DNA of 64,000 bases from Geothrix fuzhouensis (GTDB lineage: Bacteria > Acidobacteriota > Holophagae > Holophagales > Holophagaceae): positions 496,001-560,000 of the forward strand of contig NZ_JANHMQ010000002.1 in the NCBI RefSeq assembly GCF_024609325.1, in the 5' to 3' direction. The translations under genes and the position numbers were made by a program. This document shows, one piece after another, positions 43,529 to 57,277 of this stretch; within the stretch, counting starts at the first letter, position 1; the number at the start of each line of letters is the position of its first letter. The notes beneath the pieces are model-generated. The model was given only the letters and a program-made list of their open reading frames with translations, had not been told where the DNA came from and did no database searches.

Positions 43529-44902
43529 ATGACTCGGACTGCCTTCAAGACCTTCGCCGGCGCCGTGTCCGCCCTGGCGCTCGCAGGCCTCATCGCCGCC
43601 TGCGGCGGCTCGAAACCGGACGCCCCGGCGACTTCCACCGCGTTGAATCCGGAACAGCGGGTCCTGCCCAACCGGACCGGTTCCTCCGGATACGTGGTGC
43701 TGGCCTGGAACGACCTCGGCATGCACTGTCTGAACCCCAGCTACGACGCCGCGGTGATCCTGCCCCCCTACAACACCGTGCAGGCCCAGGTGGTGAAGCG
43801 GGGCAATCCGCCCCAGCCCGTCACCTCGGGTGTCACCGTGAGCTACCGGATCCTCAACAACACCAAGTCCTCGACCAAGGGGAGTTTCGGGCAGTTCTGG
43901 GCGAACATGCAGAAGCTGTTCGGCGTGTCCCTTCCCGTGGACAAGGGCCTCAATCTCGACGATCCGTCCGTGAACAATGGCCTCTCCGGGACCATGTTGG
44001 CCAAGGGTGACCACTTCCTGGCCTCGGGCATCCCGTTGACGCCCATCGATGACAAGGGCGTGTGGAACCCGTATCAGGTGGGCGAGATTACGGTGAAGGA
44101 CGCCAGTGGCAAGGTGGTGGCCCAGACCACGACCACGGTGCCCACCTCGGACGAGATCAGTTGCTCGAAGTGCCACGGCAGCGACGCCCTGAACGAGGTG
44201 CTCCGGAAGCATGACGCGGCCCACGGCACTCAGCTCTTCGCGAACAAGCCCGTCCTGTGCGCCAGCTGCCACGGCAGTCCGGCCCTCGGCACGTCGGGCC
44301 CGGGATCCTCGGGGATGTACCTCTCGCAGGCCGTGCATGGCTTCCACGCCACCCGAGGCGCCGCCTGCTACGACTGCCATCCCGGCGCCACCACCAAGTG
44401 CAACCGGAGCCTGGCCCACACCGCGGCCGACGGGAACTGCACGACCTGCCACGGAGACATGGCCAACGTGGCAAACACCATCAAGAGTGGCGCCCGGGTG
44501 CCGTGGGCCAACGAACCCAAGTGCGTGACCTGCCACAGCGGCGTCGCCGAGGTGGACACGGGTTCCGCGCTCTACCGGAATGCGCGGGGCCACGGCAACC
44601 TCTACTGCTCCGCCTGCCACGGCAGCCCCCACGCGATGGTGCCCACCTCCCAGGCCTCGGACAATGCACAGGCCATCCAGTACCAGGGCAAGGCCAAGGC
44701 CATCGCCAGCTGCGCCGCCTGCCACAGTTCCAACCAGGGCGGAGGCTTCAGCGAGTTCGCCCACAAGCACACTTCCGCGGGTGACAACCAGGCTTCTGCC
44801 TGCAACGTCTGCCACACGGGATTCCAGGATGTCACTCAACAGGCCAAGTGGCCCCACCAGTTCCAGTGGAAGGCACGCGGGGGCTCGGGCGGCGGCGACT
44901 GA
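43529..44902 (+). CDS. Octahaem c-type cytochrome lipoprotein
   Basis: The product has 457 residues. The signal peptide ends in a lipobox (ALAGLIAAC, Cys at about 25). A beta-rich non-haem domain spans about 45-205. The second half holds eight CXXCH sites (CSKCH, CASCH, CYDCH, CTTCH, CVTCH, CSACH, CAACH, CNVCH). Additional histidines (e.g. HGFHATRG, AHKHTSAG) can serve as distal ligands. Lipid anchoring and exposure at the outer membrane would suit extracellular electron transfer, as in Geothrix-like bacteria; this is inference. It is monocistronic with GGGAGG before the ATG. Confidence 0.93.
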   Translation: MTRTAFKTFAGAVSALALAGLIAACGGSKPDAPATSTALNPEQRVLPNRTGSSGYVVLAWNDLGMHCLNPSYDAAVILPPYNTVQAQVVKRGNPPQPVTSGVTVSYRILNNTKSSTKGSFGQFWANMQKLFGVSLPVDKGLNLDDPSVNNGLSGTMLAKGDHFLASGIPLTPIDDKGVWNPYQVGEITVKDASGKVVAQTTTTVPTSDEISCSKCHGSDALNEVLRKHDAAHGTQLFANKPVLCASCHGSPALGTSGPGSSGMYLSQAVHGFHATRGAACYDCHPGATTKCNRSLAHTAADGNCTTCHGDMANVANTIKSGARVPWANEPKCVTCHSGVAEVDTGSALYRNARGHGNLYCSACHGSPHAMVPTSQASDNAQAIQYQGKAKAIASCAACHSSNQGGGFSEFAHKHTSAGDNQASACNVCHTGFQDVTQQAKWPHQFQWKARGGSGGGD

Positions 44903-45071: not shown

Positions 45072-47225
45072 TTACTGTTTCGTATGGTCCAGTAGGCCGG
45101 TATTCATGAAGTCGAATCCATCGTTCCTGCTGCGGAGCACATTGATGTAAGGGAAACTGACATCCGTGTGCACATGGATCCCGGGCGCCATGACCGCTTG
45201 GTAGATCAGCGTCCGCTTATCGACGCCGTAGTAGTTGGTGACGTGGCTCGTGCAGTTGAAGATGATCTGGTTTGACGTGTTGGAGAAGCTGCCCACATGG
45301 ACGGCCTCCACCAAGCCGTAGGGGCCACTGGTGGCGCCGAAATCCATGGCCAGGAAGTAGGAGAAAGTACCGTCGGCATTGAAGGTGTATTGCGCCGACG
45401 CATTGGAGTAGTCCACGGGATTGGGCACGCCGACGAAGAGCCATCGGCCGACCAGCGCGGCGTCGAAGGGCTGATTGACGGTGACGGTGCAGGTGGCGGA
45501 GAGGGCGCCCTTGGTGGCGGTGATGAGGGCCGTACCTCTCCAGACAGCGGTGACAAGGCCTGCGGCATTCACCGTGGCCACATCCGGGGCATTGGAGGTC
45601 CAGGTGACCTGGGCATCATAGGGGGTCACGGTGGATCCGTCCGAGAAGCGGCCCGTGGCGGTGATGTCCATGGTCTGCCCCGCGGTCCCCGTTGCGGACG
45701 TGGGGTTCAAGGTGATGGATGTGAGGGTTGGTGCCGTGGCGCTCACAGTGATGGCGGCCGTGCGCGACACGTCGTTCAAGCTCGCGGTGATGGTGGCCGT
45801 TCCTGCGGCGACTCCGGTCACCACACCACCGGCGTTCACGGTGGCCACTGTCGGTGCCGAACTCGTCCAAGTCAGGTAGGAGTCGTAGGGGACCGTGCTG
45901 GTGCCGTTGGACCAGTTCACGGTTGAGGTGATGTCCACAGTTTGGCCGACGTTCAGCGCGGCGCTGGTGGGATCCAGCGAGATGGAGACCACCGTGGGGC
46001 CGGCGTTGACGGTGATGGCCGCTGTGCCGGAAACCCCCGAGGCACTGGCTGTGATGGTGGCTGTGCCCGCGGACTGGGCCGTCACCACCCCGATGGAATC
46101 CACCGTGGCCACGGCTGGGGCGCTGGAGGTCCAGGTCACCCGCGTGTCATAGGGGGAGTCGGTGGTGCCGTTCGAGAGGTGCCCGGTTGCTCCAATGTCC
46201 ACGGTTTGCCCGATGTTCAGGGCACTGCTGATGGGGTTGAGGCTGATGGAGGTGAGGGTGGGACTGGAGGAACTCACGGTGATGGCGGCCGTGGTGTTGC
46301 GGCCGTTGGCGGAGGCCGTGAGGATGGCGGATCCGGCGCCGACAGCCGTGACCACGCCCGCCGAATTCACGATGGCGACACCGGGGGTGTTGGTGGACCA
46401 GGTCACGTTGGCGTCGTAGGGCGTGGTGATGGTGCCGTTGGACCAGTTGGCGGTGGCGGTGAAATCCGCCGTCTGTCCCACATTCAGCGTCACGCCCGCA
46501 GCGGGGTTGAGGGTGATGGAGGTAAGGGTGGGACTGGAGGAACTCACGGTGATGGCAGCCGTGGTGTTGAGGCCATTGGCGCTGGCCGTGAGGGTGGTGG
46601 ATCCGGCGGCGACGGCTGTGACAACGCCCGCCGAATTCACCGTGGCCACGCTGGCAAGGTTGGTGGTCCAGGTGACGCTGGAATCGTAAGGGACCGTACT
46701 GGTGCCGTTGGACCAATTGGCGGTGGCGGTGAAATCCGCCGTCTGCCCCACGTTCAGGGTCACGCCTGCGGCGGGGGAGAGGGTGATGGAGGTAAGGACC
46801 GCGGAGGAGGCATTGACGGTCACGACGGCGGAACCCTGGATGGTGCCCTTGGTCGCGGTGATGGTGGCGGTCCCGGCCGCCACTCCGCTCACCAGGCCGC
46901 TGGCGGACACGGAAGCCGTCCCCGGGGCGCTGGAGGTCCAGGTCACCGAGCTGTCGTAGGGCGTGACCGTGGTGCCATCGGAAAAGTGGCCTGTGGCCTG
47001 GAGATCTGCCGAGGCGCCCACATTGAGGGTGGGCCCCGAGGGAGCGAGGGTGATAGAGGTCAAAGTCGCCGTGGCTGTTGGCGGAGGCGACGACGGGGCG
47101 GAACTGCCTCCGCCACTTCCGCCGCAGGCCAGCATCAGGACGGCCGCAAGGCAGGCACCCATGGCCCGGAGGGGCCGGTTCCGGCGCAGCGCGGGCGATG
47201 GGGAGTGGGCGTGCATGTCGGGCAT
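45072..47225 (-). CDS. Lipoprotein with six BIG2 (bacterial Ig-like) domains
   Basis: The product has 717 residues. The signal peptide ends in LAAVLMLACGGSGGG (lipobox Cys), then a Ser/Pro linker. Six tandem domains of about 83 residues follow, each with the pattern LTSITLxP, LNVGQTxD, PYDxxVTWTS, VATVNxxGVVTxVAAGTATITA. The C-terminal 135 residues form a different domain that starts FDAALVGRWLFVG and has a few aromatics. BIG2 arrays are cell-surface stalks. ATG 47225 was chosen for its GGAGG 6 nt upstream. The terminal domain is likely the functional head; its ligand is unknown. Confidence 0.9.
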   Translation of the reverse strand: MPDMHAHSPSPALRRNRPLRAMGACLAAVLMLACGGSGGGSSAPSSPPPTATATLTSITLAPSGPTLNVGASADLQATGHFSDGTTVTPYDSSVTWTSSAPGTASVSASGLVSGVAAGTATITATKGTIQGSAVVTVNASSAVLTSITLSPAAGVTLNVGQTADFTATANWSNGTSTVPYDSSVTWTTNLASVATVNSAGVVTAVAAGSTTLTASANGLNTTAAITVSSSSPTLTSITLNPAAGVTLNVGQTADFTATANWSNGTITTPYDANVTWSTNTPGVAIVNSAGVVTAVGAGSAILTASANGRNTTAAITVSSSSPTLTSISLNPISSALNIGQTVDIGATGHLSNGTTDSPYDTRVTWTSSAPAVATVDSIGVVTAQSAGTATITASASGVSGTAAITVNAGPTVVSISLDPTSAALNVGQTVDITSTVNWSNGTSTVPYDSYLTWTSSAPTVATVNAGGVVTGVAAGTATITASLNDVSRTAAITVSATAPTLTSITLNPTSATGTAGQTMDITATGRFSDGSTVTPYDAQVTWTSNAPDVATVNAAGLVTAVWRGTALITATKGALSATCTVTVNQPFDAALVGRWLFVGVPNPVDYSNASAQYTFNADGTFSYFLAMDFGATSGPYGLVEAVHVGSFSNTSNQIIFNCTSHVTNYYGVDKRTLIYQAVMAPGIHVHTDVSFPYINVLRSRNDGFDFMNTGLLDHTKQ
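45475..47064 (-). repeat. Six tandem repeats of about 250 bp (BIG2 units)
   Basis: The six repeats are visible in DNA and protein. The second and third units are the most alike (LNPAAGVTLNVGQTADFTAT and near-identical flanks), indicating recent duplication or gene conversion. Confidence 0.85.
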
Positions 47226-47295
47226 GGTGACCTCCAGAGAATCGCCTTCAGGCTGGCCACGACCTTGAAGGGCTGGCAGGGCCACTTTGGTGATA

Positions 47296-47312
47296 GGGGG
47301 TGGGCCACCCCC
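47296..47312. promoter_or_regulatory. GC-rich palindrome in the MocR/BIG2 intergenic region
   Basis: GGGGGTGG-G-CCACCCCC is a perfect palindrome, followed by the imperfect pair CCTGGG/CCCAGG (47311-47330). It lies in the 143-bp gap between two divergent genes, one of which is a transcription factor, so an operator is possible. Confidence 0.4.
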
Positions 47313-47368: not shown

Positions 47369-48874
47369 GTGGATCCCGTAGACTGGAAGCCCCTCCCGGA
47401 GCCAGCCCTGAGCGCACGGACGCCCACCGTCTTTCTCGATCCCCAGAGCCGGGAGCCGGTCTATCTCCAGATCGCGCACTCCCTCATGCAGGAGATCCAC
47501 CGGGGCCGCCTCCACCCCGGGGATCCCCTGCCCGGGTACCGGACCCTCGGCGAACGGCTGGGTGTCAGCCGCAACACCGTGATGGCGGCCTATCGGGAAT
47601 TGCAGGCCGAGGGTTGGGTCGTCTCCACCCCGGGAGAGGGCAGCCTCGTGGCTCCTGATCCGCCGACCCGGATGCATGGGCAGTCTCCGACCACTGGTGG
47701 GGGCTCCGAGGGGACCATCATGGGGTTCGATCTGGCTTCGGGGCTGCACGAAGCGGCGCCCAAGGGAGCTCCCGGCCTCCTGAAGGTGGGGAGTGGCCTG
47801 CCGGATCCCCGCCTCCTCCCTGGCGCGGAACTGGCCCGGGCCTACCGGCGGGCCCTGGTCCTGAACCGCCAGCAGAACCTCGAGCTGGAGGATCCGCAGG
47901 GGCATCCCATGCTCCGCCAGTCGCTGGCCCGGATGCTGGGCGAGTCCCGGGGCATCGCCGCCTCGCCCGAGAACATCCTCGTCACCCGGGGCAGCCAGAT
48001 GGCCCTCTTCCTGGTGGGCCAGGCGCTGCTTTCTGCGGGAGAGGCCGTGGCGGTCGAGGCTCTGGGTCACCCGGGAGTCTGGGAAGCCTTCGCCCGGGCT
48101 GGCGCGCGCTGCCTGCCCGTTCCCGTGGACGCGGAAGGCATGCGCGTCGGGGCCCTGGCCCAGCTGGCGGAATCCGAGCGGCTGCGGGCCGTCTACGTCA
48201 CGCCGCTGCGCCAGTACCCCACCCTGGTGCCCCTTACCAGTGACCGGCGCCACCGGCTGATGGCCCTGGCCCAGTCCCACCGGTTCGCCATCATCGAGAA
48301 CGACCAGGACAGCGAGTTCCTGTTCGAAGGTCGGCCCCGGGCTCCCCTGGCGGCCGAGGACCGCTCCGGGGTGGTCATCCACGTCGGCACCCTCAGCAAG
48401 ATCTTCAGCCCCAACCTCCGCTTGGGTTACGTGCATGGACCAGCCCCCCTCATCGCCCGCATGCGCGCCCTGCGGCAGGCCCTGGACCGCCAGGGGGACA
48501 TGGTGCTGGAGCGGGCCTTCGCCGAGCTGCTCGACGATGGCGCCATCCACCGCCACCTCAATCGCATGCAGCTGGCCTACCGGACCCGCCGTGATGTCCT
48601 CTGCCGGGCGTTGGAGCGGGCCCTGGGCGATAGCCTGAGCTTCCAGGTACCGGAGGGCGGTCTGGCCCTGTGGGCCCAGGTGGCGGAGGGCGTGGATGTG
48701 GACCGCTGGGCCGCCCGCGCCCTGGAGCATGGCGTCGCCTTCCAGCCCGGTCGCCGCTTCGCGTTCGATGGCAGCGCCGTCCAGGGCCTGCGCCTGGGGT
48801 TCTCCAACTACCCTGAATCGGATCTGGAGGAAGTCGCCATCCGCATGCGCGCCGCGTTGGGCGAAACACGATGA
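47369..48874 (+). CDS. MocR/PdxR-type GntR regulator with aminotransferase domain
   Basis: The product has about 501 residues. The winged helix of GntR type carries PVYLQIAHSLMQEIHRG and LGVSRNTVMAAYRELQAEG. A class-I aminotransferase-like domain (about 110-495) includes the PLP-lysine segment GTLSKIFSPNLRLGY. Such proteins sense PLP or amino compounds. I take the GTG at 47369 as start, since no ATG precedes the DNA-binding domain and the region upstream looks non-coding; the Shine-Dalgarno is weak. The ATG of the downstream kinase overlaps its stop (ATGA). The divergent neighbour is the BIG2 lipoprotein. Confidence 0.88.
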   Translation: MDPVDWKPLPEPALSARTPTVFLDPQSREPVYLQIAHSLMQEIHRGRLHPGDPLPGYRTLGERLGVSRNTVMAAYRELQAEGWVVSTPGEGSLVAPDPPTRMHGQSPTTGGGSEGTIMGFDLASGLHEAAPKGAPGLLKVGSGLPDPRLLPGAELARAYRRALVLNRQQNLELEDPQGHPMLRQSLARMLGESRGIAASPENILVTRGSQMALFLVGQALLSAGEAVAVEALGHPGVWEAFARAGARCLPVPVDAEGMRVGALAQLAESERLRAVYVTPLRQYPTLVPLTSDRRHRLMALAQSHRFAIIENDQDSEFLFEGRPRAPLAAEDRSGVVIHVGTLSKIFSPNLRLGYVHGPAPLIARMRALRQALDRQGDMVLERAFAELLDDGAIHRHLNRMQLAYRTRRDVLCRALERALGDSLSFQVPEGGLALWAQVAEGVDVDRWAARALEHGVAFQPGRRFAFDGSAVQGLRLGFSNYPESDLEEVAIRMRAALGETR

Positions 48875-51800
48875 GCCTGCTGCTGAGTTCCCTGGATGGC
48901 CGGATCACCCTGAAGGGCGTCCTGGGCGTCGGCGGCATGGGCGAGGTCCACCGGGCCTGGGACGCAGGGCTGGAGCGCCCGGTGGCGGTGAAGTTCGTCC
49001 GGAGCCAGGATCCGCAGGAGGCCGATCGCCTCCTGCTGGAGGCGCGCCTCCAAGCCCGCGTGGAGCACCCGAACGTGGTTCGCGTGCACGACACGGGCAC
49101 CCTGGAGAGACGTCCCTGCATCCTCCTTCAGCTGGTGGAGGGACGGACCTTCGCGGACCTCCGCGCCAATGGGGATTGGCGGGTCGAGGTCGCCCTCGCT
49201 GCCCAGGCGGCCCGGGGCCTGGGGGCAGCCCACCGGATGGGTCTTGTCCACCGTGATGTGAAGCCGGCCAACATCCTCGTGGAGGACACCGAGGAGGGCC
49301 CCCAGGCCCGCCTGACGGATTTCGGCCTGGCGCGGGATGAAGAGGGCGGCCTTACCCGCTCGGGCCTGCTGATGGGCACGGTGGATTTCATGGCCCCGGA
49401 GCAAGTGTCGGGCGCCGCCCCGGTGGATTTCCGGGCCGACATCTACGGCCTCGGCGCCACCCTCTATGCCATCCTGGCTGGCCGCCCGCCGTTCCGGAAT
49501 CCGGTCGGATCCACGGCGAAGGCGCCGAGCACCCTGGACCTCCATGGGTCTACCGCCGCGGGGGACCTGCATCCGGGCGACCTGTTGCGCCGGGTGCTGG
49601 AGAAGGACCCGCTTCCGCTCACCGCAGCGGTCACGGGCCTGCCGAGGGACCTGGCCACGGTCGTGGCCAAGGCCATGGAGAAGGCGCCGGAACGGCGCTA
49701 TGCCACCGCCGAGGCGCTGGCAGACGACCTGGAGCGGGTGCTGAAGGGCCAGGCCATCCTGGCCCGGCCCATGGGGTGGCTGGAACGCGGCCTGCGCTGG
49801 TCCAAACGCAACCCTGCGGCCGCGAAAGCCCTTGGCGCGAGTCTCACGGTGATGCTCGCCACGGGCGCCTTCGCCACCTGGAACAGCCGCCGCAGCACCC
49901 TGGCCGCCCTTGAGGCGGCCCAGATGGGAGGGGAGGCCAAGGCCCTGGAGCTGCGCATGGGCATGGCCCACCTGGCCCCGGCCCACGACATCCGGCCAGT
50001 GAAAGCGGAGCTTCGACTGGCACTCGCCCGATTGCAGGCGCGCAAGGGGGCCGCCGAGGCCCCATCTGCCTATGCGCAGGGGCGCATCCACCTGATTCTT
50101 GAGGAACTGGAGCCGGCTCGGGTGTCCCTGGAACGCGCGTGGGTTCTGGGGTTCAGGGGTCCCGATCTGGAAGAAGCCATGGCGACCGTCTACAGCCAAC
50201 TCTACGAGCAGGCCCGCCAGGAGGCGGAGGGGCTGAAGGAACCGGCCTACCGGACACGGCGGCTGGCGGAAGCGGATCTCCGTTTTCACCAGCCGGCCCT
50301 TCGTCACTTCCAGGGGGCTGGATCAGATCGGGTCCTGCAGGCGCGGCTCGCCATGTTGGAGCAGCACGACGAGAGGGCGCGCGATCTCGCCCAGGCTGCT
50401 CGCCGGGCCGACCCGGAACGAGCGGAAGCAGGTCTGATCGAAGCGCAAGCCTGGATGAACCTCATGGTGAAGGCCTATGACCTTCAGCATTTTGAAGAAA
50501 GTGAGCGCTGCGCACGGGAGGGGCTGGCCATCACGCAGGCACTGGCCCGGGTGGTGCGAAGCGACCCTGCGGTGCATCACCTGGCGGGCCGATTTCACGC
50601 CTTCCTCACAAGTCTGGCCCAACGACGGGGCCTGCCCCTGAGTGCCGATGCCGAGGCGGGTTTTCGGGAGGTGGAACTCGCCCTGAGCCTGGATGCCGAT
50701 TCGTCTAAGCCCTGGTTGAACAGGGCCCTGATTCTGGCGAACCTCAGCCGGGCCCCGAAGGCGCCCGGGGATCCCTCCCGATTGGACTACTGCCTGGCCG
50801 GAGTGGAGGCCTGTCGGACGGCGGCCCGCCTGGCACCTGATTCAGCCCGGCCGCTCGCCCGCTTTGCCTACGCGCTCTACGACCTCGGAGGTGCTCAGGA
50901 GGATGTGGGACAGGACCCGGGTCCCGCCCTTCGGGAGGGGCGCGCCGTGGCGCTCCGCCTGGACGCGATGGAACCCTGGGACCCTTCGGGGTTGAGATGG
51001 GCCTTCGCCTGTTCCGAAACGGAGGCCCGCATTCTTCTGGACCACCAACGGGATGCCTCTGAACCCCTCGCCATGACCCAGTCCCTGGCGGAGCAGATGC
51101 AGGGCAAACCTGGGGTCACTGCAGCCAACCTCCAGGAGAATGTCAAAAACCTGGAATTGCTCCTGGCCCTGGATGCCCAGGCCAGGGGCAAGGACCCCGA
51201 GGCGCATTTCCACCGTTCCTACGAAGCAAGTGAGGCACTGCGACGCCTTGAGCCTGACCAGACGAATCCGGTGTTCTTCACTGGCTGGACTGCGATCCGT
51301 TGGATGGAAGGGCGGATCCTCCTTGGACGACCAGTGGAGGATGTACTGGACCGTGCCCTACCGGTGGTGGTGGCTGCCCATGAACGCTGGCCGAAGGAAC
51401 CTCAGTTGATGATCCATCTTGCCAAGATCCTCGGCTTTGGTGTCAGGGCCTCTCTGGACCTCCCCCAAGGCGTTGATGCCGGCAGGCTCCGGGCGGCAAG
51501 GGTGGCACTCAAGGCGGCCCGGGCACAGATCACGCCCACCGAATCGGCCGACCTAGAAGGCTGGTTGGCTCTCGCCGCCTCGGCGTCGCCTGGGCCAGGA
51601 CGGCAGGCGGAGGCCAAGGCGGCCCTGGCTTACTTCACCTCCGCGCTTCATCGCCATCCCACCGACCTGGGCGTGATCGAAGGCCTGGTGAGAGCCCAAT
51701 GCGGCCTGGGAAGGCCCTCTTCGGCGCTGCGCCTCCTTGAGTCCATGGAACCGGCCCTTGCCAAGAAGCCAGAGATCCAATGCCTGAAGGTTCGGACCCT

Positions 51801-51927
51801 GCGTGCCCTCGGGCGTCACGCAGAAGCGGATTGCCTCGCCACAGAGGCTCGGGTGGTCCACCCGGTATTCGCCCAGCACGTGGCCCTGTCCTTGGGGCCT
51901 CGTCTGGCCACCACCCCCGCCCCATGA
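48871..51927 (+). CDS. Transmembrane Ser/Thr protein kinase with long TPR-like region
   Basis: The product has 1018 residues. The kinase domain (about 12-285) contains LGVGGMGEV, AVKFV with the catalytic Lys, GLVHRDVKPANILV and LTDFGLAR. A transmembrane helix lies near 313-335 (AAAKALGASLTVMLATGAF). The remaining 680 residues are alpha-helical repeats, unlike the TolB-like region of the other two kinases. Translation is coupled to the MocR regulator by a 4-nt overlap, which is an unusual pairing. A weak hairpin (CGGCTG/CAGCCG at 51975-51989) follows. Confidence 0.9.
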   Translation: MSLLLSSLDGRITLKGVLGVGGMGEVHRAWDAGLERPVAVKFVRSQDPQEADRLLLEARLQARVEHPNVVRVHDTGTLERRPCILLQLVEGRTFADLRANGDWRVEVALAAQAARGLGAAHRMGLVHRDVKPANILVEDTEEGPQARLTDFGLARDEEGGLTRSGLLMGTVDFMAPEQVSGAAPVDFRADIYGLGATLYAILAGRPPFRNPVGSTAKAPSTLDLHGSTAAGDLHPGDLLRRVLEKDPLPLTAAVTGLPRDLATVVAKAMEKAPERRYATAEALADDLERVLKGQAILARPMGWLERGLRWSKRNPAAAKALGASLTVMLATGAFATWNSRRSTLAALEAAQMGGEAKALELRMGMAHLAPAHDIRPVKAELRLALARLQARKGAAEAPSAYAQGRIHLILEELEPARVSLERAWVLGFRGPDLEEAMATVYSQLYEQARQEAEGLKEPAYRTRRLAEADLRFHQPALRHFQGAGSDRVLQARLAMLEQHDERARDLAQAARRADPERAEAGLIEAQAWMNLMVKAYDLQHFEESERCAREGLAITQALARVVRSDPAVHHLAGRFHAFLTSLAQRRGLPLSADAEAGFREVELALSLDADSSKPWLNRALILANLSRAPKAPGDPSRLDYCLAGVEACRTAARLAPDSARPLARFAYALYDLGGAQEDVGQDPGPALREGRAVALRLDAMEPWDPSGLRWAFACSETEARILLDHQRDASEPLAMTQSLAEQMQGKPGVTAANLQENVKNLELLLALDAQARGKDPEAHFHRSYEASEALRRLEPDQTNPVFFTGWTAIRWMEGRILLGRPVEDVLDRALPVVVAAHERWPKEPQLMIHLAKILGFGVRASLDLPQGVDAGRLRAARVALKAARAQITPTESADLEGWLALAASASPGPGRQAEAKAALAYFTSALHRHPTDLGVIEGLVRAQCGLGRPSSALRLLESMEPALAKKPEIQCLKVRTLRALGRHAEADCLATEARVVHPVFAQHVALSLGPRLATTPAP

Positions 51928-52160
51928 TCGACCTCCGCCGCCACACCCTCCAGCTGGGGTGACGGACCCTCCAGCGGCTGCAACAGCCGGGTGAAGCCTA
52001 GCCCTTTCCCTGGTCCTGCAGGTGCCTGATGCGGACGCCCGCCGTCCATTCAGCGGGAGTTCCCGGGACCATGATGTTTCAAGCGATGGGAAACACCTCC
52101 GTTCCCAGCATCCCGCTTTCAAACAAAGGCATGGGCCCCCTTGGCCGATCCCGGGAAGAG
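51928..52160. other. Gene-free stretch before the repeat lipoprotein
   Basis: Apart from a small hairpin at 51975-51989, nothing convincing is seen. An open frame starting at 52029 runs into the following gene in another frame and is considered spurious. Confidence 0.4.
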
Positions 52161-52225
52161 GTGGCCCAGCCCCTTTCTGCAAAGCGTGCCTGGGCTGGAC
52201 CGGAGGGGGGCGCCAACCTGGGCCA
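52161..52225 (+). promoter_or_regulatory. Putative structured leader, copy 1
   Basis: TGGCCCAG (52162-52169) and CTGGGCCA (52218-52225) can pair around about 48 nt. The inside begins CCCCTTTCTGCAAAGCGTGCC, where CTTT/AAAG makes a small hairpin. A second copy with the same outer stem and similar inner sequence is at 55590-55653. Both lie upstream of exported repeat-lipoprotein genes. The GGAG of the downstream gene follows 9 nt later. Confidence 0.5.
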
Positions 52226-52242
52226 ACCTCTCTGGAGCCCCC

Positions 52243-53616
52243 ATGGCCGCCCATCCCGTTCCTCGCCTCCTCGCGCTGGCCCTGTCGGCCGCACTCGTCC
52301 TGGGATGGCTCACCGCCTGCGGCGGGGGTAGCGGGAGTGGCGGGAGTGCCGCCGCCCCGCCACCGCCCACGGCGAAGGCCTGGGGCGTGGCCGCGCTCAT
52401 CGAGACCGACAATGCTGGCCCAGCCTATCTCCCGCAGGTCGCCATGGATGGCAGCGGCAATGCCCTGGCGGTATGGCAGCAGCACGATGGCATGCGCTTC
52501 AACCTGTGGTCCAACCGCTATACGGCCGGTGCTGGTTGGGGGGTGGCCACCCTCATCGAGACCGACAACGTGAGCGATGCCTCCGACCCCCAGATCGCCG
52601 TCAACGCCAGCGGCAATGCCCTAGCGGTATGGGCTCAGCACGACGGCACGCACCGCAACATCGTGGCCAATCGCTACACGGTCGGCACCGGCTGGGGCAC
52701 CGCCGTGCTCATCGAGACCGACAACGCCGGCAACGCCAACCAGCCCCAAGTCGTCATGGACGCCAACGGCAATGGCTTGGCGGTATGGACTCAGGATGAC
52801 GGCACGTACCAGACCGTCATGGCCAACCGCTACACAGCGGGCAACGGCTGGGGCACCGCCGCGACCCTCGAGAACGGCATCGTGGGGGATGCGTTCGAAC
52901 CCAGGATCGCCATCGGCGCCAATGGCAACGCCCTGGCCGTGTGGGTCCAGTCCGACGGCACGCGCCTCAATGTCTGGGCCAATCGTTACACCGGCGGTTC
53001 CGGCTGGGGCACGGCAGGGCTGATCGAAACCGACAACGTGGGAGATGCTTACAGCCCCCGGATCGCCATCGATGCCAACGGCTATGGCCAGGCGGTGTGG
53101 TGCCAGTACGATGGCACGCGCTTCAACATCGTGACCAACCGCTATATCGTCGGCAGTGGCTGGGGCACGGCGACCATCATCGCAGGGGTGGGCAACGGCG
53201 GGACCGCCTCCCAGATCGCCTTCGACCCCAGCGGCAATGCCCTGGCCGTGTGGAGCCAATCGGACGCGGGGCGCTCCAGCATCTGGTCCAGTCGCTACAT
53301 TGTAGGCACCGGTTGGGGCACAGCGGCGCTCATCGAAACCGACAATGCGGGTGATGCCGGTAGCCCCAAGATCGCCTTCGACGCCAGCGGCAATGCCCTG
53401 GCGGTGTGGGGTCAATCGGACGGCACGCGCATCAACATCTGGACCAACCGCTACACCGCCGGCAGCGGCTGGGGCACGGCCGCACTCCTCGAGACCGACA
53501 ACGCGGGTGACGCCAATGAGCCCCAGATCGCCGCCGGCATCAACGGCCAGGCGCTGGCGGTGTGGTACCAGTCCGACGGCACACGCAGCAATATCTGGTC
53601 GAACCGCTTTCAGTAA
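52243..53616 (+). CDS. Lipoprotein with eight 52-residue repeats
   Basis: The product has 457 residues. The signal peptide ends LGWLTACGGGSGSGG (lipobox). A short proline linker precedes eight tandem repeats of about 52 residues, each with WGTAALIETDNAGDA, P-x-IA-x-D, GNALAVW-x-Q-x-DG, N-I-W-x-NRY. The repeat looks like single blades of a beta-propeller. ATG 52243 has GGAG 6 nt upstream. It is the first gene of a group with the next two exported proteins. The role, presumably surface binding, is inferred only from the architecture. Confidence 0.85.
   Translation: MAAHPVPRLLALALSAALVLGWLTACGGGSGSGGSAAAPPPPTAKAWGVAALIETDNAGPAYLPQVAMDGSGNALAVWQQHDGMRFNLWSNRYTAGAGWGVATLIETDNVSDASDPQIAVNASGNALAVWAQHDGTHRNIVANRYTVGTGWGTAVLIETDNAGNANQPQVVMDANGNGLAVWTQDDGTYQTVMANRYTAGNGWGTAATLENGIVGDAFEPRIAIGANGNALAVWVQSDGTRLNVWANRYTGGSGWGTAGLIETDNVGDAYSPRIAIDANGYGQAVWCQYDGTRFNIVTNRYIVGSGWGTATIIAGVGNGGTASQIAFDPSGNALAVWSQSDAGRSSIWSSRYIVGTGWGTAALIETDNAGDAGSPKIAFDASGNALAVWGQSDGTRINIWTNRYTAGSGWGTAALLETDNAGDANEPQIAAGINGQALAVWYQSDGTRSNIWSNRFQ
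52381..53616 (+). repeat. Eight tandem repeats of about 156 bp
   Basis: The repeats encode the eight 52-residue blades. Units 1, 2, 3, 5, 7 and 8 are close, whereas units 4 and 6 are more divergent, unit 6 being shorter. Confidence 0.85.
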
Positions 53617-53661
53617 GTCGCAGCTGAGCCAATTCCACCCTCCTTTCCTCCTGGAGTTCCC

Positions 53662-54177
53662 ATGTTCAAACCGCTCGCCATCGCCATCCTGCTGGTTGCC
53701 TCACCGACCTGGGCCCCGGCCCAGCCAGTGACACACCTGGGCGTTCCCGCCGCCAATCTCATAGCTGTGGATATCAGCACGCGCTCGGATCTTTCCACCG
53801 GCACGGTGACGACGGATGTGGGAACCCTTGAAAATGGGGTCTGGGTCTGGCAGTTCGGGGTGAAAGGCTTCGAAGTCCCCAAGGGCCGGACGCTCATCGT
53901 CACCGATGCCCAGGCCTGGGTGCTCCACGAGCCGGGGACCGGCACGCCGGCCTCCCTCGAACTGATGCTGGAGCACCCCTCGGCCGGCTATTCCGGCAGC
54001 ATGGCCCTCTTCACCTTCGCGGACATCCCCGCCGACGCCATGGGGGTGAAGCGCCAGACCTGGACCAGCGGTTTCATGGTGCCTGAGGGCATGAGCGTGA
54101 AGATCTGGGCCCAGCAGTTCTATCCCAAGAGCCTGATGTCCATGGCCCGCATCATCCTGCATGGCTACTACCTCTGA
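53662..54177 (+). CDS. Exported protein of unknown function
   Basis: This 171-residue protein has a signal peptide (LAIAILLVASPTWAPAQ). The mature part is predicted beta-rich with a cupin- or lectin-like flavour (FEVPKGRTLIVTDAQAWVL), but I cannot place it. GGAG precedes the ATG. The next gene starts 15 nt after its stop. Confidence 0.7.
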   Translation: MFKPLAIAILLVASPTWAPAQPVTHLGVPAANLIAVDISTRSDLSTGTVTTDVGTLENGVWVWQFGVKGFEVPKGRTLIVTDAQAWVLHEPGTGTPASLELMLEHPSAGYSGSMALFTFADIPADAMGVKRQTWTSGFMVPEGMSVKIWAQQFYPKSLMSMARIILHGYYL

Positions 54178-54192
54178 GTGGGTGAGGGATCC

Positions 54193-55578
54193 ATGCGCCA
54201 GAATCTGATCGCCGGTACGCTGCTCTGCCTCCTCGCCGCTTGTGGCAGAGGCGGCGATGCCACAACCCAGACCCCGGCCCCTCCACCGGCCCCGGCCTGG
54301 CAGGCGCCCGTGGAACTCGCCAATTCCAGCTACATGGGCGGCGCCCTGCTGGCGGGGGACGGGAAGGGCGCCGTTCTCGCCGCCTGGATGCGGACGGGCG
54401 TCGACGCCGGGGGCACGCCCTACTGGGAGCAGGTGGCGGCCCGACTGCGCGCCGACGGCACCTGGGAGCCTCCCCAGACGCTGGATGGGGCCAGCGGCAT
54501 CAACGGCCTCCAGTTCCCCGTGGCGGCCCTGGATGCCCAGGGGAAGGGTCTCATCGCGTGGTTCGACGCCGTGCCCCGCAGCACCACCACGCGCCTCCAG
54601 ACGGTGCCGGTGGACCTGGGCTCGCCCACGCCCTTCGGCGCGCGGGCCACCGCCCTGACGGTGGATCTGAAGGCCCCCACGAACCTCCACCTGGCCACCG
54701 GCGCCGATGGCAGCGCCCTCGCGGCCTGGTCGGGCCTCCGCATGGACCCCACGCTGGGGGTGGACTTCCCCACCGTCCAGGCGGCCCGCCTCGAGGCGGG
54801 CGGGGCCTGGGGCACCCCCCAGTCCCATCACCTGAACATGTACTCGAGCCAATTCCTCCACGACCTGGCGGGCGATGGCCGAGGGGCCTACACGCTCGAC
54901 TTCTCCACGGGCGACGATGCCTCGGTGGAGAACGAGGCGGTGGATTACGCCATGGGCGCCAACACCCCGGTCGGCATCGCGGGGTGGGGCCCGCTCTCCC
55001 AGCAGACCCTTCCCACTGGCCATCCTTCCGTCTGGTCCCTGGATGCGGAGGGCCGCCTGGAGACCTGGCTTCTCTATGGCGTGGCCAGCGAGGGGGATGC
55101 CCAGCGCCAGGCCTGGCCCCGCAGCCGCGCCACATCGGGCGCCTGGACCGTGGGGGACAAGGTGAGCCTGCCCCTGCCCGCCCGCAGCCTGGTCGCCTTC
55201 CGTGCGACCGGCGACACAGGCTGGATGGCTGGGCTGGGATCCGAGGGCCTCTGGGTGGCGCCCCTGTCCGGCGCGGCGCCCGGCACACCCCGGACTCTCC
55301 TGCCGATGTCCACCACGACCGAAGTCATGGTGGGAACCCGGGACGCCTCGGGCCGCCCAGTCCTCTTGTGGATCCAGCGCGGAGCGGGCGGTGTCCATGA
55401 AGGCGTCGGCTTCTCTCGGTGGGATGGCGCCGCCTGGACGGCTCCGGCGCTTCTTCCCGGAACGGCCGGGAAGACCATCCAAAGCCTATTCGCCGTGCCA
55501 GGCCCCAGGGGCCTCCTGGCCGGGTGGGTGGAGGTGGGCGATCGCGTCCTCCTGTTCCGCACCGCGCTCTGGAAGTGA
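54193..55578 (+). CDS. Lipoprotein with propeller-like repeats, unknown function
   Basis: The product has 461 residues with lipobox TLLCLLAACGRGG. The body contains irregular repeats with DGKGAVLAAWMR, DAQGKGLIAWFD and DGSALAAWSG. These share the GNALAVW-type strand with the eight-repeat protein upstream, so both probably have propeller folds. ATG 54193 follows GAGGG by about 6 nt; an in-frame GTG at 54178 is possible. It is co-oriented and probably co-transcribed with the two preceding genes. Confidence 0.78.
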   Translation: MRQNLIAGTLLCLLAACGRGGDATTQTPAPPPAPAWQAPVELANSSYMGGALLAGDGKGAVLAAWMRTGVDAGGTPYWEQVAARLRADGTWEPPQTLDGASGINGLQFPVAALDAQGKGLIAWFDAVPRSTTTRLQTVPVDLGSPTPFGARATALTVDLKAPTNLHLATGADGSALAAWSGLRMDPTLGVDFPTVQAARLEAGGAWGTPQSHHLNMYSSQFLHDLAGDGRGAYTLDFSTGDDASVENEAVDYAMGANTPVGIAGWGPLSQQTLPTGHPSVWSLDAEGRLETWLLYGVASEGDAQRQAWPRSRATSGAWTVGDKVSLPLPARSLVAFRATGDTGWMAGLGSEGLWVAPLSGAAPGTPRTLLPMSTTTEVMVGTRDASGRPVLLWIQRGAGGVHEGVGFSRWDGAAWTAPALLPGTAGKTIQSLFAVPGPRGLLAGWVEVGDRVLLFRTALWK

Positions 55579-55589
55579 AGGCAGCGGGG

Positions 55590-55653
55590 TGGCCCAGCCC
55601 CTTTCCTGGAAGTGTGCCTGGGGCGGTCCGCAGTCGGGCCGCACGCTGGGCCA
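55590..55653 (+). promoter_or_regulatory. Putative structured leader, copy 2
   Basis: TGGCCCAG (55590-55597) and CTGGGCCA (55646-55653) pair as in copy 1. The inner part CCCCTTTCCTGGAAGTGTGCC matches copy 1 at most positions. The small hairpin changes from CTTT/AAAG to CTTT/GAAG, a U-A to U-G change that keeps pairing. It lies upstream of the RCC1 lipoprotein gene. Confidence 0.5.
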
Positions 55654-55747
55654 TTCCCCGAGGTTTGTGAAGAGAGATCCCATGGCCCTCCGATCCCTCC
55701 GCATGGCCCTCCTTTCCACCACGATCCGACCTCCCCAGGAGCCCCGA

Positions 55748-57277
55748 GTGATCCGATCTGTGCCAGTGTCCCTCCGCCTGTGCTTGGCCAGCGCGGCCCT
55801 CGCTCTCGTCCTTGCCTGTGGGGGCGGTTCCGGCTCCAGCACACCACCGCCTGCCAGCATCACCGGCCCCCGCTTGACCACGCCACCCTCAGCCCAGGCG
55901 GGCTACCGGGGGGATGTGGTGACCTTCCGGGTGGCGGCGGAAGGAACGGGCAACAGCTACCAATGGTTCCGGAACGGCACCGCCATCGCCGGGGCCGCCA
56001 CCGATTCCTACGCCCTGCCGGTCCAGGCGGTGGATGACCAGGCCCGGTTCAGCGTGCGGGTCACGGCTTCTACCGGCGGAGCCACCACCAGCCCCGACGC
56101 CCTGCTGGATGTGCTCTACGCGGACCCGGCCGTGGTGGCGGGCCATGACCATGCCCTGGCGATCACCACCAAGGGGCGCGTGTTCGCCTGGGGCGTGGGG
56201 GGCAACGGCCAGCTGGGCCTTGGGGACTACCAGGCCCGCATGGCGCCGGTGACCGTGCCTCTGCCCGGCCCTGCCGTGCAGGTGGCGGCGGGCTGGGGAC
56301 ATTCCCTGGCCCTGCTGGCCGACGGCCGCGTCTTCTCCTGGGGGAACAACACCTCAGGCCAGCTCGGGAACGGCACCACGACCATGAGCAACAGTCCGGC
56401 AGAGGTGCCGGGGCTGGCCAGCGTCGTCTACATCACCTGCGGGTACAACCACAATCTTGCTGCCAAAGCAGACCAGTCCGTCTGGATGTGGGGTTACAAC
56501 TCTCACGGCCAGCTGGGCCAAGGGGACAAGACCAACCGCCTGAGCCCGGTCTCGATTCCGGTTGCCGCCTCCCAGCTGGCTGATGTGGCCCTGGGTGAGC
56601 TGCACACGCTGCTGGTGGACACCTCCAACAACCTCTATGGCTTTGGTGACAACGGCTACGGCCAGCTGGGCCTGCCCTACTCGCCCACGGCCGAATACCT
56701 GACCATCACCCAGCTCCAGAGCGGGGGCGTGAAGGCGGCCCGGGCTTTCTCGCTGTATTCCGTCCTCCTCGGCACGGATGGCCTGCCCTACGGCAGTGGC
56801 GAGAACGGCTATGGCCAGCTGGGGGATGGCAGCCAGGTGACCCGGTATGGCTGGGTGCGCATGAGCACGGCGGGCCTGCCCTCCGGCACCGCCCTCGACA
56901 GGGTCGTGCCGGGGCAGTACCACACGCTCTTCCTGGGCGGGCAGGGAGCCGTCGCCTCGGTGGGCTACAACTGGTACGGCCAGCTGGGGCTCGGGTCCGC
57001 CACGACCACATCCGCCACCGCCTCCCAGGCCATCGCCGGGCTCACGGCCATCCAGGCGAGCTCGGGCTACTGCTCCTCCTATGCCCTGCTGCCGGATCTT
57101 TCGGTCAAGGCCTGGGGCTACAACAACAATGGGCGGCTGGGCGACGGCACCGCCACCGACCGCCCCTCGCCCACGACGATCCCCGGCCTCTTCCTGGGGC
57201 CCATCCCCACGGGGGTCACGCCACCCGCACCGGTGCCGCCCGGCGGCCTGGGGAAGAAGGGACTGGCCGATAGCTGA
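55748..57277 (+). CDS. RCC1-like seven-bladed propeller lipoprotein
   Basis: The product has 509 residues. A lipoprotein signal (LCLASAALALVLACGGGSG), an Ig-like domain (about 35-125, YQWFRNGTAIAGA), then seven RCC1 repeats with the motif G-x-x-H-x-L-A, V-x-x-WG-x-N-x-x-GQLG. The number seven fits one complete propeller. I chose GTG 55748 because AGGAG lies 6-7 nt upstream and the signal begins there; ATG 55682 is an in-frame alternative. The function is unknown. It is probably the head of a surface adhesin or receptor. Confidence 0.87.
   Translation: MIRSVPVSLRLCLASAALALVLACGGGSGSSTPPPASITGPRLTTPPSAQAGYRGDVVTFRVAAEGTGNSYQWFRNGTAIAGAATDSYALPVQAVDDQARFSVRVTASTGGATTSPDALLDVLYADPAVVAGHDHALAITTKGRVFAWGVGGNGQLGLGDYQARMAPVTVPLPGPAVQVAAGWGHSLALLADGRVFSWGNNTSGQLGNGTTTMSNSPAEVPGLASVVYITCGYNHNLAAKADQSVWMWGYNSHGQLGQGDKTNRLSPVSIPVAASQLADVALGELHTLLVDTSNNLYGFGDNGYGQLGLPYSPTAEYLTITQLQSGGVKAARAFSLYSVLLGTDGLPYGSGENGYGQLGDGSQVTRYGWVRMSTAGLPSGTALDRVVPGQYHTLFLGGQGAVASVGYNWYGQLGLGSATTTSATASQAIAGLTAIQASSGYCSSYALLPDLSVKAWGYNNNGRLGDGTATDRPSPTTIPGLFLGPIPTGVTPPAPVPPGGLGKKGLADS

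Follow-up and report, generated by a model that had tools for sequence, protein, structure and literature searches.

A 67-bp sequence element recurs upstream of genes for exported repeat proteins in Geothrix fuzhouensis (Acidobacteriota; Holophagaceae). Three copies lie in a 64,000-nt stretch of contig NZ_JANHMQ010000002.1 (positions 496,001 to 560,000), which was analyzed as a whole and is referred to here as the window, with position 1 as its first letter. Judging from sequence comparison, the copies are most likely DNA operators combined with weak promoters, which would be bound and most likely activated by a MocR-type regulator whose gene lies at the center of the same cluster; we give this reading a probability of roughly 0.75. 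It would define a candidate regulon in Geothrix-like Acidobacteriota in which one regulator and a defined operator are put forward as candidates and exported repeat proteins form the targets. With such proteins in the place of metabolic enzymes, the regulon would be an unusual one under a known kind of regulator.

Two of the copies had been noticed earlier as segments of about 65 nt in front of two repeat-lipoprotein genes and read as a foldable, cis-acting RNA leader which coordinates the expression of surface proteins (the original prediction). Part of this proposal holds, as a conserved cis-acting element is indeed shared by lipoprotein genes, with three copies in the window and more in relatives. 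Its RNA nature is not borne out, the proposed stems showing no covariation. The segments are thus real and conserved, and were most likely misread as RNA.

Copies of the Element in the Window

The two segments (52160-52225 and 55588-55653) align without gaps over 66 nt at 77% identity. Both contain the arms TGGCCCAG...CTGGGCCA and the inner blocks CCCCTTTC, AAG and GTGCCTGGG, together with the U-A to U-G change between them, as had been described. Three copies in the window, including one which had been missed (element 3), were located with a profile whose 45 full-length copies all came from other genomes, this genome and a near-identical sister being excluded. The next best place scored 1.4 bits, compared with 3.9 bits for the best of 20 control windows shuffled in 50-base blocks.

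52157..52223, + strand: element 1 (first segment), predicted promoter-operator, 63.4 bits; box 1 GGTGGCCCAG at 52160-52169, box 2 AGCGTGCCTG at 52183-52192, predicted -10 CAACCT at 52214-52219
55585..55651, + strand: element 2 (second segment), 60.2 bits; box 1 at 55588-55597, box 2 AGTGTGCCTG at 55611-55620, predicted -10 at 55642-55647
47246..47312, - strand: element 3, located where the MocR gene and the Big_2 lipoprotein gene diverge, 43.4 bits (whole-genome E value 3.6e-5); box 1 at 47300-47309, box 2 AGTGGCCCTG at 47277-47286, predicted -10 at 47250-47255
52077..52143, - strand: doubtful, perhaps a decayed copy lying upstream of element 1 and divergent from it, 1.4 bits, within the shuffled range (maximum 3.9)

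The layout of the element is nearly gapless and can be written as GGTGGCCCA-n5-TTTC-n3-AAAGCGTGCCTGGG-N20-A-n2-Y-T. Two putative boxes with the consensus RGYGKNCCWG are placed 23 bp apart from start to start, with TTTC/AAA in between.

Occurrence in Related Genomes

When up to two mismatches were allowed, a degenerate pattern that drew on no copies other than the two first noticed in the window had matches in 15 of 47 genomes of the genus, as opposed to none for the reversed control. The matches in two of these genomes (G011 and G029) lack GGTGGCCCA, were judged non-members and were not used. At three mismatches, two additional, chance-like matches appeared in the genome of the window itself and one match in the control. 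Seed copies were taken from 25 of the loci L001 to L030, with L003, L004, L007, L016 and L030, which lack GGTGGCCCA, dropped. The resulting sequence-only profile (R1; 25 seed copies from 13 genomes) separated 16 of the 77 family genomes, whose best matches fall below 1e-6, from the other 61, in which no match is better than 3.5e-4. Seed copies had come from 13 of these 16 genomes and none from G024, G029 and G053. Across 17 cluster regions, the sequence-only profile yielded 59 matches at E values up to 0.05. Related genomes hold further copies upstream of genes and with their orientation kept, which supports this part of the original prediction.

Target Genes

The three window copies precede the following lipoprotein genes:

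52243..53616, + strand: repeat lipoprotein gene under element 1; ATG at 52243, Shine-Dalgarno site GGAG at 52234-52237, lipobox LTAC; no match at E 0.001 in the Pfam scan
55682..57277, + strand: RCC1-repeat lipoprotein gene under element 2; Pfam RCC1 6.7e-52; start uncertain (ATG 55682, in-frame GTG 55667, or GTG 55748, which is closest to the lipobox)
45072..47225, - strand: Big_2 repeat lipoprotein gene under element 3; ATG at 47225, lipobox LMLAC, Pfam Big_2 6.9e-63

A lipobox was recognized in 25 of 49 proteins encoded downstream of copies, using a narrow expression without a control and including at least one doubtful start; the remaining proteins appear exported or membrane-like by eye. 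Families found directly downstream of copies include Big_2, RCC1 and lactonase-type propellers, and several proteins have no Pfam match. Among the copies on contigs other than the cluster's, two (L124:1209-1275 and L125:1424-1490) stand before an exported protein that appears CsgG-like by eye.

Since many copies are clustered and often precede repeat lipoproteins, they might be regarded as a duplication repeat, or as a site for recombination by which lipoprotein cassettes are shuffled, with no regulatory role. We consider this hardly credible: the downstream genes are diverse, conservation is limited to defined columns, the orientation is kept and so, in about half of the copies, is the distance to the start codon, and one copy lies at position 110,925 of a 184-kb contig (G029:C3), apart from the contig of the cluster.

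Promoter Features

Column conservation was determined on 50 of the 59 rows (those with at least 55 letters), which were dereplicated to 43 full-length copies, with two insert columns removed. In the 3′ block A-n-n-Y-T-G, A59 is present in 43 of 43 copies and T63 in all 42 that have a letter at this column. The invariant A and T are 4 nt apart, which is the spacing between positions A-11 and T-7 in a -10 hexamer, and they look like these two positions of a predicted -10 element. What the original prediction took as the 3′ side of the outer stem is better read as this -10 element. In a scan of 13 further loci, 12 have a copy whose A and T are in register and the 13th (in genome G025) has none; here the A and T columns belonged to the score, and near-duplicates were present (L124/L125 and L130/L131). 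The distance from T-7 to the start codon was counted in the 49 of 59 rows with a T at the -7 column, by a script that preferred starts with a Shine-Dalgarno site. It is most commonly 23 nt (14 of 49) and falls between 17 and 27 nt in 28 of 49.

In the proposed arrangement, the two boxes would lie upstream of and overlap the -35 position, followed about 20 bp further on by nAnnYT as the -10 element, and transcription would start about 7 nt beyond the latter. With this start, the element itself would lie outside the mRNA, and the leader in the commonest case would measure about 16 nt and comprise the Shine-Dalgarno site only. A sigma-54 promoter was also considered; the -24/-12 pattern, compared by eye, does not fit, and this reading was dropped.

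Tests of an RNA Leader

The main structural alternative holds that the copies are structured RNA leaders in the 5′ untranslated region, either riboswitches or protein-binding RNAs, which coordinate the lipoprotein genes in cis. Both window segments fold better than their shuffles (z scores of -2.60 and -2.87, with 2 of 200 shuffles as good in each case). However, the predicted folds of the two segments differ from each other, and individual folds disagree as well. In the 59 copies, covariation in the outer stem and the small hairpin amounts to 0.090 compared with 0.089 for shuffled partners, and the proportion of paired cells in these stems is 81.7% for both. The named register does exceed slid registers (at most 63.9% of cells), which is expected if the structure derives from the same sequences. 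Furthermore, the CUUU/AAAG hairpin shows standard pairs in 87.0% of cells, and an alternative hairpin reaches a covariation of 0.103 compared with 0.090 for shuffled partners, a value attained in 17 of 500 shuffles which relatedness alone can cause. RNAalifold predicted zero pairs on the 59 copies; with a set of 25 it gave four pairs, all near-invariant and non-compensatory (-1.5 kcal/mol). A structured RNA was rejected on the RNAalifold results for both sets, the single folds and the pair counts, none of which revealed a conserved structure with compensatory changes.

An Rfam scan returned no family at gathering score at the elements, in agreement with the original prediction, which recognized no known riboswitch class in them; the only such match in the window is a tRNA. 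A short conserved element before surface-protein genes is familiar from the GEMM (cyclic-dinucleotide) riboswitches. By the Rfam comparison, and by their lack of a conserved RNA structure, the elements differ from these riboswitches. At element 1, nothing was found at E values up to 5, and the single match at element 2 (dauA, E 2.4) was taken as chance.

The geometry of the copies is likewise difficult to reconcile with a leader. Spacer columns 39-58 carry between 0 and 0.44 bits each, and their length is nonetheless kept in an alignment that is nearly gapless over 67 columns, with one-base deletions in the spacers of two full-length copies (L072:9120 and L083:4346). In seven back-to-back pairs of copies, the matched 5′ ends are separated by 9, 10, 15, 16, 16, 24, and 61 nt, so that the promoters of transcribed leaders would mostly fall inside the opposite copy. 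Element 2, in addition, starts just 9 nt past the stop codon of the preceding reading frame. The RNA leader is thus very unlikely, and the case illustrates that a GC-rich, partly palindromic promoter can mimic a structured RNA leader when just two copies are compared.

Linkage of the Element to a MocR Regulator

The copies cluster around a gene for a MocR-type regulator, which in the window is followed by a kinase gene:

47408..48874 (approximate), + strand: MocR-type regulator gene, GntR winged helix and class I aminotransferase domain; CTG at 47408 as the predicted start
47379..47384, + strand: predicted -10 TAGACT of the MocR gene, 22-27 nt before the in-frame CTG in seven of eight orthologs located
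48871..51927, + strand: Ser/Thr protein kinase gene with a TPR match; Pfam Pkinase 1.4e-36, TPR_19 2e-05

Among the 77 genomes of the family, the 16 with a MocR protein of at least 72% identity among the matches listed are the same 16 that show a strong motif match (the MocR of G024 being partial), and this joint distribution is patchy inside the genus. A copy directly upstream of the MocR gene and pointing away from it is present in 12 of the 16 (ten by profile, G017 at E 0.039, and G006 by eye). As for the remaining four, the order is tandem in G053, Ns occur in G012, the MocR gene of G024 is cut by a contig end, and none was seen in G025.

Both domains of the window protein score well above the Pfam cut-offs (GntR 2.8e-18, 65.8 bits, cut-off 27; Aminotran_1_2 2.5e-23, 83.3 bits, cut-off 19.7), and a comparison with solved structures matched GabR at 9.1e-33. 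In the alignment to a solved aminotransferase, Lys367 falls on the SK site, the lysine of which binds pyridoxal 5′-phosphate (PLP). This lysine is kept in 26 of 26 relatives of at least 63% identity (the window's own protein apart), and Asp335 in 25 of them, with Ala in L077. The Tyr of the PLP-site DYD motif, as found in the distant paralogs L105-L107, is replaced by Gln at residue 336 in both MocR subfamilies (see below), so the ligand chemistry of these proteins may differ. The apparent CTG start, inferred from the sequence, is preceded by a GGAG Shine-Dalgarno site and kept in the relatives located. The eight orthologs in which the -10 was checked were located by script among 15 loci, and the distance from TAGACT to the start resembles that of the predicted -10 of the element.

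In the mechanism that we propose, the MocR protein encoded in mid-cluster would bind the module and most likely activate the weak promoters, and several genes for exported proteins would thereby respond jointly to a PLP- or amino-acid-like signal. Other MocR proteins likewise activate genes divergent from their own.

A second MocR subfamily is 64-68% identical. Four of its 11 loci scanned contain a weak match (22.4, 22.1, 19.6, and 13.8 bits), which in L103 and L104 separates the regulator gene from a divergent gene for a lipoprotein and in the other two lies elsewhere in the region. The boxes of these copies differ, and L104 has AGTGGACCTG twice, as a perfect 10-bp repeat 23 bp apart; by eye, the A and T of the predicted -10 are in exact register in all four. 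Variant sites beside a variant regulator would be the pattern expected from co-evolution of regulator and site, albeit in few cases and with the genome G042, discussed below, speaking against it. Upstream of the second-subfamily MocR in L094-L098 lies a divergent gene, MscS-type channel-like by eye, which has a promoter-like TTTGCTAG block.

Several findings weigh against control of these promoters by MocR. With regard to the promoter, the predicted -10 has no T-12 and the -35 is poor, retaining just the TG of TTG at 18 bp; this fits an activator-dependent promoter and is no proof of one. In 21 of the 49 copies, 30-100 nt separate T-7 from the start codon, some of these distances being measured from uncertain start codons. 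The symmetry of the boxes does not exceed column-permuted nulls, as the best direct repeat in the consensus scores -2.57 (95% null 1.18) and the best inverted repeat 1.56 (95% null 2.63); the six direct-repeat entries among the top 14 are all at offset 23. As to linkage, regulator and copies are mostly neighbors and inherited together, such that their co-occurrence alone is no proof of binding. G025 has no copy in the 551 nt upstream of its MocR gene, and G042 has a clear variant copy (L131:1250-1316, 38 bits) while its best MocR among the matches listed is 38% identical. In the second subfamily, copies are confined to the four loci mentioned, down to 13.8 bits in L104, and of the four regions surrounding more distant MocR genes that served as controls, one gave a partial match of 12.8 bits.

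These points would also suit a promoter module for some other trans-acting factor, either a sigma factor dedicated to it or an activator not linked to the cluster, with MocR as a passenger or itself a target: the MocR gene adjoins a copy, the repeat symmetry is not significant, linkage could account for the co-occurrence, and the copy in G042 stands without a close MocR among the matches listed. Such a factor is unlikely, albeit less so than an RNA leader. Motif and MocR mark the same genomes in spite of their patchy distribution, variant copies adjoin the second-subfamily MocR in L103 and L104, and the only DNA-binding domain among 16 Pfam-scanned proteins is that of MocR, most genes of the cluster lying outside that scan. 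Bases as far out as about -66, moreover, would lie beyond what a sigma factor is expected to read.

Comparison With Known MocR Systems

Published MocR sites consist of direct and/or inverted boxes and are often found in divergons; boxes that are repeated directly are spaced by two or three helical turns (PMC5320631). The operators of GabR, PdxR, and TauR are similar to the present element in that the site lies between the regulator gene and a divergent target and the boxes, putative in the present case, are about two helical turns apart (PMC5320631). In addition, the TauR box CTGGACYTAA (Suvorova and Rodionov, 2016; PMC5320631) resembles the AGTGGACCTG of L104. In contrast, those regulons are metabolic (PLP, γ-aminobutyric acid, and taurine; PMC5320631), while the genes concerned here encode exported repeat proteins, and box symmetry is weak in the present element. 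The site would fit MocR operators in place and box content; as to symmetry, permuted columns give equally good repeats. The words “Acidobacteria” and “lipoprotein” are absent from the main text of PMC5320631, its supplements lying outside this search.

A further parallel is the EnuR promoter of Ruegeria pomeroyi, where predicted MocR-type operators overlap core elements of a sigma-70 promoter (PMC8739950). EnuR differs in being described as a repressor which acts on ATTGT-n6-ACAAT sites in ectoine catabolism (PMC8739950). Among the open-licence papers listed, titles and the beginnings of abstracts revealed no study on a MocR lipoprotein regulon, on the pairing of MocR with a kinase or on control by MocR in Acidobacteria. 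One of the titles (PMC3921978) concerns YgaE, a regulator of the gab operon, and outer membrane proteins in Salmonella Typhi.

The MocR-Kinase Pair and Neighboring Genes

The kinase gene starts with a 4-nt overlap with the MocR stop, and the same overlap is present in L070, L073, L076, L077, L081, and L083; the other regions gave no clean gene call. The MocR-kinase pair may form a functional unit. More tentatively, and with the odds rather against it, MocR, translationally coupled to the kinase, could have moved from metabolic control to the position of a master switch for a changing set of surface repeat lipoproteins. New genes would join this set via the 67-bp promoter cassette, and the cell would adjust its exterior to a signal related to amino acids or PLP, with phosphorylation as a possible modifier. 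A gene for a multihaem c-type cytochrome-like protein (window 43529-44899) adjoins the cluster.

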